Source: Burkholderiaceae bacterium (GTDB taxonomy: Bacteria; Pseudomonadota; Gammaproteobacteria; Burkholderiales; Burkholderiaceae_C). From it: a stretch of 64,000 bases of DNA. Shown piece after piece: positions 19,233 through 60,762 of the stretch. A model generated the notes under the pieces. That model saw only the letters and a list, made by a program, of their open reading frames with translations, did not search any database and was not told where the DNA came from. The position numbers and the translations under genes were made by a program. Location: the NCBI GenBank assembly GCA_031253795.1, contig JAIRVR010000003.1, forward strand, positions 1-64,000. The letters run 5' to 3'. The number at the start of each line of letters is the position of its first letter. Within the stretch, counting starts at the first letter, position 1.

Positions 19233-19279
19233 ACTGCCATTATTGCCTCAACTGTGCATCCGTACAGTTCCTCCAGCCT

Positions 19280-55847: not shown

Positions 55848-56672
55848 TCAGTGGTGGTGCGCGGCGCCGCTGATCAAGGTGACCATCACGATACCCAGCA
55901 TCAGCCAGCCCACCTGGGCCACGGTCTCGCGGGCGCTCAGGCGCTTTTGCAGCTGGGGGATCAGGTCGGCCAGCGCCACATAGATGAAGCTGCTGGATGC
56001 CACGGCCAGGAAATAGGGCAGCAGCTCCTGCAGCTGGCCCACGAGAAAATAGCCGGCGATGCCGCCCAGCGTGGTCACGGCACCGGCCATGGACACCTTG
56101 ATCAGGGCCACGCGCCGGTTGGAGCTGGACTGGCGCAGCACCACGATATCGCCCATGTGATGGGGCACCTCGTGCGCCAGCACGGACACGGCCGCGATCA
56201 GGCCCAGGCGCATGTCGGCCATGAAGGCCGAGGCGATCAGCACGCCGTCACCAAAGCAGTGCACGCTGTCACCGGTCAACACGGCCCAGCCACCGCCGCG
56301 GCTGCCGTGGGCGTGATCATGGTCATGGTCATGGTCATGGTCGTGGTCGTGGCCGTGCACGTGACCATGGTGGTGTGCTTCGCCATGCTCGTGGCCGTGG
56401 TGCCACAGCTCGGCCTTGGACAGCAGGAAGAAGAACACCAGCCCCACCAGCAGGGTGATGAACAGGTCATGGGCTCCGGCCTCGCTTTCGAAAGCCTCGG
56501 GCAGCAGGTGCATGAAGGCCGTGGCCAGCAGCGCCCCTGCCGCCAGGCTCAGCAGTCGCTGCGGCATCAGCCCCGGCGAACGGTTCCCACCCAGGCCCAT
56601 CAACAAAGCGGCCACCCAGACGCTGCCGATGCCGGCAGCCAGGGTGGCCAGAATGATTGCTATCAATGTCAT
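55848..56672 (-). CDS. ZIP-family divalent metal transporter
   Basis: A 274-residue importer with eight predicted helices. Its cytoplasmic loop after helix III is strongly His/Asp-rich (HHHGHVHGHDHDHDHDH and more), a known zinc-sensing or buffering loop. Metal-site residues are in HCFGDGVLIASAF and LAHEVPHHMGDI. The usual substrate is zinc or iron. The ATG used has no ribosome site, and an in-frame ATG 10 codons upstream has none either. A short inverted repeat GCTAT/ATAGC overlaps the start and might be an operator. Confidence 0.88.
   Translation of the reverse strand: MTLIAIILATLAAGIGSVWVAALLMGLGGNRSPGLMPQRLLSLAAGALLATAFMHLLPEAFESEAGAHDLFITLLVGLVFFFLLSKAELWHHGHEHGEAHHHGHVHGHDHDHDHDHDHDHAHGSRGGGWAVLTGDSVHCFGDGVLIASAFMADMRLGLIAAVSVLAHEVPHHMGDIVVLRQSSSNRRVALIKVSMAGAVTTLGGIAGYFLVGQLQELLPYFLAVASSSFIYVALADLIPQLQKRLSARETVAQVGWLMLGIVMVTLISGAAHHH
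56315..56352 (+). repeat. hexanucleotide tandem repeat coding His-Asp
   Basis: Repeats of GGTCAT drifting to GGTCGT, encoding alternating Asp-His on the minus strand inside the ZIP loop. Such runs are prone to slippage in multiples of six, changing loop length without frameshift. Confidence 0.75.
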
Positions 56673-56903
56673 AGCGTTTTTATGCGTCAACCATATGCCC
56701 ATGCAGGCGAAACCCGCGAATTCTCGCAGAACACGGACACCGACGCCGCCACGGCCCGCTATCCCATGGGGACAGCAGGCCGGACGAAATCCATGCCCTT
56801 GCTTTCAGCCTACAGAAGCTGTCAAGCCCCCCGACCAACCCCTTGTGGCAAGCGCAGCGACAGCCGCCATCGCCACACGGGGCAAAGGCCAGGGGCAGGC
56901 AGG

Positions 56904-57794
56904 TCAGACGCCGTGCCGCTTGAACCAGGCCAGCATGCGCTCCCAGCCGTCCTTTGCAGCCTGCTCGCGGTAGCTGGGCCGGTAGTCGGCATGGAAGGCA
57001 TGGGGCGCTTCGGGGTAGATCACGAACTCCGACGCCTTGGCCGCGGCCGGCCCCTGCTTGAGGGCTTCACGCATGCGTTCCACCGAAGCCAGCGGAATGC
57101 CCGTGTCCTGGCCGCCATACAGGCCGAGCACAGGGGCCTTGAGCTGGTCCACCAGTTCCAGCGGGTGGCGGGGCTGCAGCTCGGTCTTGGCGCCTTCCAG
57201 CCGCCCGTACCAGGCCACGCCGGCCTTGACCGGGCCATGGGCCGCATACAGCCAGGTGATGCGCCCACCCCAGCAAAAGCCCGTGATGGCCACGCGCGAC
57301 AGGTCTCCACCCTGGGTACCGGCCCATTGCACGGCCGCATCCAGGTCGCCCATGACCTGGGCATCGGGCACCTTGGCGATCAGCTCGCTCATGAGCTTGG
57401 CAATCTCGCCGAAGGCCTTGGGATCGCCCTGGCGCGCGAACAGCTCGGGCGCAATGGCCAGGTAGCCCGCCCGGGCCAGGCGCCGGCAGGTGTCGGCGAT
57501 GTATTCATGCACGCCGAAGATCTCGGAGATCACCAGCACCACGGGCAGGTCCTTCTTGCCCGCGGGCGCCGCGCGGTAGGCGGGCACCTTGAAGCCATTG
57601 ACCATGAAGCTCACTTCGCCGGCCGTCAGGCCGTCGGCCGGTGTGGCAATGGCCGTCTGCGCCATCAGCGGCGTCGCCGCCGCCGCATAGCCCAGACCCA
57701 GGGCCGTCTGCAGCGCCAGGCGCCGCGTCGGCCCTTCCTCCGCACTGCGCCCCGGAACCAGGGCCTTCAGGTCTTGCTGCTGATCGTCACGCAT
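56904..57794 (-). CDS. exported dienelactone hydrolase-family protein
   Basis: A 296-residue alpha/beta hydrolase. The triad is Cys174 (GFCWGG), Asp230 (YGGQDTGIP) and His265 (PHAFHAD), the carboxymethylenebutenolidase pattern. The N-terminal RRLALQTALGLGYAAAATPLMAQ looks like a Tat signal, so it acts in the periplasm, unlike catabolic ClcD/TfdE enzymes. A strong ribosome site AAGGAGAG fixes the start. No chlorocatechol genes are nearby; the substrate is unknown. Confidence 0.88.
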   Translation of the reverse strand: MRDDQQQDLKALVPGRSAEEGPTRRLALQTALGLGYAAAATPLMAQTAIATPADGLTAGEVSFMVNGFKVPAYRAAPAGKKDLPVVLVISEIFGVHEYIADTCRRLARAGYLAIAPELFARQGDPKAFGEIAKLMSELIAKVPDAQVMGDLDAAVQWAGTQGGDLSRVAITGFCWGGRITWLYAAHGPVKAGVAWYGRLEGAKTELQPRHPLELVDQLKAPVLGLYGGQDTGIPLASVERMREALKQGPAAAKASEFVIYPEAPHAFHADYRPSYREQAAKDGWERMLAWFKRHGV

Positions 57795-57921
57795 GCATCT
57801 CTCCTTGGTGGTGGTTGAGAACCCGGCAAGTCTACGATGCGCGTGTAAACGCTCAGCGACAGCCGTGCATCGACAACGGCACAGTGCCGGTGTGCAGCAG
57901 TGCCCCAGGCCAGGCCATGCC

Positions 57922-60762
57922 TCAATGCGCCTTGTCCCAGTTGGGCCCCACGCCGACCTCGGCCAGCAACGGCACCTTGAGTTCGGCCACGCCGGCCATG
58001 AGGCGCGGGATCTCGGCACGCAGCCAGTCCACGTCGCCCTCGGGCAGCTCGAACACCAGTTCATCGTGCACCTGCATGATCACGCGTATGCCGGACTGGC
58101 GCGCGTCGAGCTCGGCCTGCACGGCCACCATGGCCTTTTTGATCAGGTCGGCCGCCGTGCCCTGCATCGGCGCGTTGATGGCCTGGCGCTCCGCGGCCTT
58201 TTTGCGCGGGCCGCTGCCGCCATTGATGTCGGGCAGGTACAGGCGCCGGCCGAACACGGTTTCCACATAGCCGTTCTGGTGGGCGAACTCCACCGTCTCT
58301 TCCATATAGCGCTTGACGCCGGGATAGCGCTGGAACTAGCGGTCGATATAGGCGGCCGCGGCCTTGGTCTCTATGGCAAGGTTCTTGGCCAGGCCAAAGC
58401 TGCTCATGCCGTAGATCAGGCCGAAGTTGATGACCTTGGCATAGCGGCGCTGCTCGCTGCTGACCTGCTCCAGCTCCACGCCGAAGACTTCGGCCGCCGT
58501 GGCCCGGTGCACGTCGCGGCCCTCCTGGAAGGCGCGCAGCAGCGACTCGTCGCCCGACAGATGGGCCATGATGCGCAGCTCGATCTGCGAATAGTCGGCG
58601 CTGGCGATCAGGTGGCCGGGCGCGGCAATGAAGGCCTCGCGCACGCGCCGGCCCTCGGGCGTGCGGATGGGAATGTTCTGCAGGTTGGGATCGTTGCTGG
58701 ACAGGCGGCCCGTGACGGCCACGGCCTGGGCGTAATGCGTGTGCACGCGGCCCGTGCGCGGCAGGGCCAGCTGGGCCAGCTTGTCGGTGTAGGTACCCTT
58801 GAGCTTGGACAGGCTGCGGTGCTCCAGCAGCTTGGCCGGCAGCGGATAGTCCTCGGCCAGCTTCTCCAGCACCTCCTCGTCGGTGCTGCGCGCCCCCGTG
58901 GCCGTCTTCTTCACCACGGGCATGCCTAGCTTGTCGAAGAAGATTTCCCCCAGCTGCTTGGGGCTGGCCAGATTGAAGGGCTGGCCCGCGATGTCATAAG
59001 CCTCCTGTTCCAACTGCACGATGCGCTGGCCCAGGTCGTTGCTCTGCCGTGCCAGGGTGGCCGCATCGATGAGCACGCCGTTGCGCTCGATGCGGAACAG
59101 GGCCTCGCTGGTGGCGATCTCCAGCTCGTAGATGCCGCGCATGCCTTCATGGGCCTGCAGCTGGGGCCAGAGCACGCCATGCACGTCCAGCGTCTGGTCC
59201 GCATCCTCGCAGGCATAGGCAGCGGCCTTGTCCACGGGCACCTGGGAGAACGGAATCTGGTGCGCACCCTTGCCACACAGGTCTTCGTAGCTGATGCCCG
59301 TGCGGTTGGTATGGCGCAGCGCCAGGCTGGCCAGTCCGTGCGGACGGTGCACTTCCAGCACATAGCTTTGCAGCATGGTGTCGTGCACATAGCCACGGAC
59401 CTCGATGCCGGCATTGGCGAACACATGGCGGTCGTATTTGACGTGCTGACCCAGCTTGGGCCGCGCACCGTCCTCCAGCCAGGGCCTGAGCCGCTGCAGT
59501 ACCTCGTCCGCCGGCAATTGTTCGGGGGCGTCGGGACCGGCATGGCGCAGCGGAATATAGGCCGCCTCGCCGGGCCTGACGCTCAGCGAAATGCCGACGA
59601 TTTCGGCCCGCATCTCGTCGAGCGAAGTGGTTTCGGTGTCCAGGGCCGTGAGTTCGGCCGCCTCGACCTTGGCCAGCCAGCGGTCCAGGGCCTCCCAGGT
59701 CAGGACCACGTCGTAGTCCAGATCGCGCTGCTGGGCGGCCTCGGCTTCGGTTGTGGCCTGGTCGGACTCGGCCTGCTCCTCGGCGAACATGTCCCCCGTG
59801 GCCTGGTCGGCACGCGGCTTGGCGGTCTTGCGCCCGGCCTGGACGGCCTGCAGCGCATCGGGCTCGGCCACGGCTGCGCCCAGGGCGCGCGCCAGGCCCT
59901 TGAAGCCATAGCGCTCGTAGAACTCGCGCAGGGGCGCGGCATCGGGCTCGCGCGGTGCCAGCGCATCGAGCTGGGGCAAACCTGGCACCTGGGCGGCCAG
60001 GTCGCAGTCGGTTTTCATGGTGACGAGCTGGCGGCTGAGCGCCAGCTGACCCGAGGCGATGGCGTCGCGCAGGTTCTGGCCGGCCACGCCCTTGATGCCT
60101 TCGGCCGCGGCGATCAGGCCGTCGAGCGATCCATGCTCGGCCAACCATTTGGCAGCCGTCTTGGGGCCCACCTTGTTGACACCGGGCACGTTGTCCACGG
60201 CGTCGCCGACCAGGGCCTGGTAATCGACCATCAGCGTGGGCGGCACGCCGAACTCGGCCGTGACCCCGGCCACGTCGCGGCGTTTGCCGCTCATGGTGTC
60301 CATCACCATGATGTGCTCGTCGACCAGTTGGGACAAGTCCTTGTCGCCGCTGGAGATCACGACCTGCACGCCCTGGGCGGATGCCGCCTTGGCCAGGGTG
60401 CCGATCACGTCGTCGGCCTCCACGCCCTCGATGGCCAGCACGGGCCAGCCCAGCAGGCGGACCACGTCGTGGATAGGGTCGATCTGGGCGCGCAGATCGT
60501 CGGGCATGGGCGCGCGGTGGGCCTTGTAATCGGGGTACAGCGCATCGCGGAACGTGGGGCCGCTGGTATCGAAGACGCAGACGGCATAGTCGGCCGGCAC
60601 TTCCTTTTTCAGCGCCTGGAGCATGTTGATCATGCCGCGGATGGCGCCCGTGGCGGGGCTGGCCGGGTTGCCGGGCTCGGCACGCAGGTCCGGCATGGCA
60701 TGGTAGGCGCGGTAAAGGTAGCTGGAGCCGTCGATCAGCACCAGGGTCTTGGAATTGCTCAT
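57922..60762 (-). pseudogene. polA: DNA polymerase I interrupted by in-frame amber codon
   Basis: The full frame is 946 codons and begins MSNSKTLVLIDGSSYLYRAYH. The 5' nuclease domain (about 1-325) and 3'-5' exonuclease domain (LDTETTSL, KYDRHVF, YACEDAD) are intact, as are polymerase motif A (SADYSQIELR) and the O helix (RRYAKVINFGLIYG). Codon 809 (58336-58338) is TAG where relatives have Tyr in the Y-F-x-R-Y-P-G-V segment. The frame continues unbroken after it (FQRYPGVKRYMEE... to the stop) and includes motif C VHDELVF. The 808-residue product would lack motif C, and so polymerase activity. It could be a real nonsense mutation, a sequencing error, or a suppressed codon. Confidence 0.9.

Follow-up and report, generated by a model that had tools for sequence, protein, structure and literature searches.

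An in-frame TAG codon in polA of a partial Comamonas draft genome: probably a wrong consensus base, possibly a very recent nonsense mutation

In the 64,000-nucleotide stretch of DNA analysed here (referred to below as the window), the reading frame of polA, the gene of DNA polymerase I, is interrupted by a single TAG at codon 809 of 946. This TAG is probably one wrong consensus base in a partial draft, in which case the living organism would make an ordinary full-length DNA polymerase I. The serious readings are two, a consensus error and a very recent mutation, and under either the event is ordinary in kind; the sequence alone cannot decide between them, as a single clean stop fits both. The step that we infer is that the base is wrong, as opposed to being a real and very recent mutation. 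We regard this as most likely, given that the genome is a partial draft and that a free-living cell should pay a price for losing synthesis by polymerase I. The stop was picked out for study since it is located in a well-known gene. The features of the region, with the evidence for each in brackets, are the following.

57922..60762, minus strand: polA (DNA polymerase I) frame of 946 codons, including one in-frame TAG (sequence, Pfam)
58336..58338, minus strand: the in-frame TAG, codon 809, aligned with Tyr in the relatives (sequence, alignment)
59986..60747, minus strand: 5' nuclease domain (PF02739 and PF01367), residues 6-259, ahead of the stop (Pfam)
59155..59709, minus strand: 3'-5' exonuclease domain (PF01612), residues 352-536, ahead of the stop (Pfam)
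58339..59058, minus strand: first part of the polymerase domain (PF00476 profile positions 3-243), residues 569-808 (Pfam)
57925..58335, minus strand: remainder of the polymerase domain beyond the TAG (PF00476 profile positions 245-380), 137 codons, open and conserved (Pfam, Klenow match, dN/dS)
58057..58071, minus strand: VHDEL, motif C, beyond the stop (sequence, Klenow match)

The polA frame starts at 60762 (MSNSK...), from where the codons are counted, and its terminal stop is at 57922-57924. At 58336-58338 the plus strand reads CTA, which gives CGC TAG TTC on the minus strand, and the TAG is flanked by AAAAYIDR before and FQRYPGVKRYMEE after it. All four Pfam families (PF02739, PF01367, PF01612 and PF00476) score above their curated cut-offs in the frame, and the DNA_pol_A match is in two pieces around the TAG. 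The E. coli Klenow chain 1d9d_A is matched in the same order on both sides, with its positions 7-466 before the stop and 469-605 after it. By register, chain position 468 is opposite the stop; this is residue 791 if Klenow comprises residues 324-928. The interrupted reading frame is no chance frame. It shares its 5' nuclease, 3'-5' exonuclease and polymerase domains with E. coli DNA polymerase I (1d9d), but has an in-frame TAG where that chain has a residue.

No uninterrupted polA frame runs through VHDEL, as the TAG precedes 58057-58071. DYSQIELR and the RRYAKVINFGLIYG helix, which we take to be motifs A and B, are both upstream of the TAG, so that what would be lost is motif C together with the last stretch of the polymerase domain. 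The first-pass annotation had placed the TAG at 58336..58338, as codon 809 of a 946-codon polA, and both its coordinates and its description are right. It had also stated that motif C would be lost if the stop were real and that the 5' nuclease and proofreading domains would be kept; this agrees with the position of VHDEL after the TAG and with the Pfam matches, in which both nuclease domains are complete before the stop. On the plus strand, an imperfect 11-base direct repeat (58306-58316 and 58324-58334) ends one base before the TAG codon. The repeat suggests no mechanism, and the repeat scan found no inverted repeat at the TAG site.

The frame was aligned with 111 other rows. The loci of the window itself (L001 and L111) are not among these, nor are L035, L054 and L060, in which the script saw no single frame with both sequence motifs sought. 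Five genomes are present twice in the alignment (L087/L113, L090/L114, L093/L112, L094/L116 and L096/L115) and three more pairs are DNA-identical across two collections; the 111 rows therefore hold at most 103 different sequences. Tyr stands opposite the TAG in all 111 rows, and the earlier proposal that Tyr is the equivalent residue and that one codon has changed is thereby borne out. The genome collection contains one genome per species, and the closest polA relative has 90% DNA identity. The genus of this genome is represented by 53 genomes, itself included. The polA sequences of Comamonas sp. NoAH 3, Comamonas denitrificans and Comamonas sp. MAG (NTP6) are identical to those of genus members (2,634-2,637 bases), which identifies the genus as Comamonas.

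The main polymerase match is free of stops in 51 of the 52 relatives from the genus. In the remaining one, G013 (75% complete, 320 contigs), polA (L155, G013:C99:1-3000) carries indels of one base each at codons 793, 918 and 920, and, to judge from these indels, its break is of a different kind from the polA TAG and such as occurs in a noisy draft. The first of these indels lies only 16 codons before the TAG position, which is probably a coincidence in a noisy assembly. In a family-wide survey for PF00476, 387 of 399 genomes had a match; among the matches listed, which were the best-scoring ones, none had an internal stop, and two partial matches were seen in several of the drafts.

Selective constraint was found to be alike before and after the stop. 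In comparisons with the five nearest relatives, codons 1-808 gave a dN/dS of 0.086-0.129 and codons 810-946 one of 0.095-0.133. For the last part of polA, the ratio was 0.10-0.18 between intact relatives (three pairs), and 0.26 and 0.13 for two further relatives (G042 and G008, respectively). At 358 alignment columns, all rows agree or all but one do. The private states of the window there number two, namely the stop and L541M, and those of five other rows three to five, in a count in which genomes present twice in the alignment cannot score. Compared with seven near relatives, ten amino-acid changes are private to the window (the stop not counted), two of them beyond the stop. We reject decay of polA in view of the similar dN/dS on both sides and the few private changes at near-invariant columns. 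Whatever its nature, the TAG has left no trace of relaxed selection that can be seen in these comparisons. Since polA is equally preserved after and before the stop, the TAG is either absent from the cell or very recent.

With each of the five nearest relatives, synonymous divergence in codons 810-946 exceeded that in codons 521-808 (57925-59202 for the two parts together), and it did so clearly in four cases; against G002, the values were 0.253 before the stop and 0.584 after it. Between intact relatives, the divergence before and after this position was about equal in two of three pairs. The raised synonymous divergence beyond the TAG complicates an otherwise plain picture. Identity to G001 and G052, taken in 200-base steps, was 93-94% at 58401-58800, 90% at 58201-58400 and 88-90% at 58001-58200. 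This is a gentle fall with no sharp step, and it does not appear to support a chimeric contig joined near the stop.

The assembly comprises 2,885,822 bases in 77 contigs; its completeness is 59.12% and its contamination 0.07%. The frames of the window were compared with the corresponding regions of G001 and of G052, which left 50 and 48 non-overlapping frames, respectively, to be kept; overlapping frames, many of which also contained stops, were set aside as shadows. Three stops in the kept frames were seen against both relatives: polA codon 809, 19248-19250 and 56904-56906. The last of these is two residues before the frame end. At 19248-19250, the window has TGA in place of a Cys codon that both relatives share; the position is residue 4 in a frame of 437 residues, and the true start of the gene probably differs. 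In sequence, both of these stops look like differing gene ends. Stops seen against one relative only were confined to the first 50 residues, the last few residues or low-identity, shadow-like frames. No frameshifts stood out among the window frames compared with the two relatives, split matches being judged by eye. Elsewhere in the window, 55848-56702 on the minus strand encodes a ZIP-family metal transporter (Pfam) with a long His-Asp repeat.

A detector of in-frame stops, trained on the window genes, was run over 444,550 bases of the genome, the window included. When 600 stops were spiked into window genes, it found 471 of them, a figure that is somewhat flattering because the same genes had trained it, and it is blind to frameshifts. 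It replaced an earlier detector that had listed mostly apparent antisense shadow frames in this GC-rich genome. Seven candidates were obtained, with polA ranked first, and five of the seven look like junctions of neighbouring genes, as judged by eye from the translated flanks. The candidate at C8:95029 (L163:14753-15235; C8:94753-95235) is an in-frame TAA in a frame open for 92 codons before it and 68 after it. By eye, this locus looks like the remnant of a TonB-type receptor and is probably an ordinary pseudogene. The polA TAG was the sole clean in-frame stop in an intact gene found in these 444,550 bases. Nothing visibly marks the assembly as rich in errors, and odd changes are not overrepresented in polA. 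Good drafts also contain a few wrong bases, and for this reason a single clean stop cannot separate error from mutation: if, purely as an assumed illustration, one base in 100,000 were wrong, a genome of 2.9 Mb would contain about 29 wrong bases, of which about one would create a stop.

TAG is a normal terminator in this genome: the conserved window genes other than polA number 31, and TGA terminates 26 of them and TAG the other 5. The genome has 32 tRNA matches, of which 31 were typed by ARAGORN and the remaining, weakest one was unrecognised; no CTA anticodon, the mark of an amber suppressor, was present among the 31 typed tRNAs of this genome, which is 59% complete. Three tandem tRNA-Lys genes, all with the anticodon CTT, lie about 8 kb beyond the window (C45:71650-71977). 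A widely recoded TAG finds no support in the tRNAs, the detector results or the gene ends. PF00476 and PF02739 have one match each in the assembly, both in this polA, and neither a second family-A polymerase nor a second such 5' nuclease, either of which could render polA dispensable, was found in the 59%-complete genome. A copy of polA on a plasmid or mobile element was also considered and rejected, the plasmid search having returned 5 records with 60-80% identity, none covering 80% of the query.

The first-pass annotation had offered three readings of the codon: a mutant, a base-call error, and suppression or read-through. The former two are the serious ones, and the last found no support. 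That the TAG is real and yet read through or suppressed, with some full-length polymerase being made, is very unlikely: the downstream frame is indeed fully constrained and a suppressor tRNA could sit in the missing part of the genome, but the typed tRNAs contain no suppressor anticodon, TAG terminates conserved genes of the window, and no second clean in-frame stop was found in the bases scanned. As the column is Tyr throughout the alignment, read-through would be no conserved trait. A split polymerase is hardly credible. It would consist of the 808-residue part acting together with a C-terminal part of 127 codons, restarted at the in-frame ATG (58303-58305) that lies 11 codons after the stop; however, none was seen among the 52 same-genus relatives or the 111 aligned rows, the cut would presumably fall inside the fold of the polymerase domain, and a simple consensus scan detected no promoter-like site in 57750-58500.

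That the sampled strain carries a genuine nonsense mutation of very recent date is possible, although we consider it clearly less probable than a wrong base. The cell would then survive in the manner of E. coli polA1, with defects in repair, and its 808-residue product would retain both nuclease domains; without motif C, this product should not polymerise. Such a mutation is consistent with a single, cleanly altered codon amid little other noise and with the 5' nuclease and 3'-5' exonuclease domains being complete before the stop. In E. coli, cells with the polA1 amber mutation are viable, and the N-terminal domain of E. coli polA, the 5'-3' exonuclease, is reported to be sufficient for growth (PMC6379578). 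In polA1, the amber at Trp342 likewise lies inside polA and leaves the 5' nuclease domain (PMC6379578), and a genuine mutation in the present genome would be already known in kind. The two differ in that the stop here comes much later, past the 3'-5' exonuclease and most of the polymerase profile, and in that the amber here is a candidate present in an assembly. On the other hand, the invariant Tyr and the lack of decay after the stop mean that a genuine change would have to be very young, since the 3' part of polA is still constrained. Such a mutant should also be selected against, given that the sensitivity to damage of a B. subtilis polA deletion is ascribed to the loss of the Klenow part (PMC10191290). 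We find it rather improbable that a natural polA allele without polymerase activity, but with both nuclease activities, is carried by free-living Comamonas and has recently become the main genotype of the sample.

If the TAG is real, it would represent a natural counterpart, outside E. coli, of the laboratory polA1 mutant, and the strain would be one for asking how a cell lives without DNA polymerase I synthesis. More probably, the TAG illustrates that a lone stop in a draft genome should be checked against reads before it is treated as biology.
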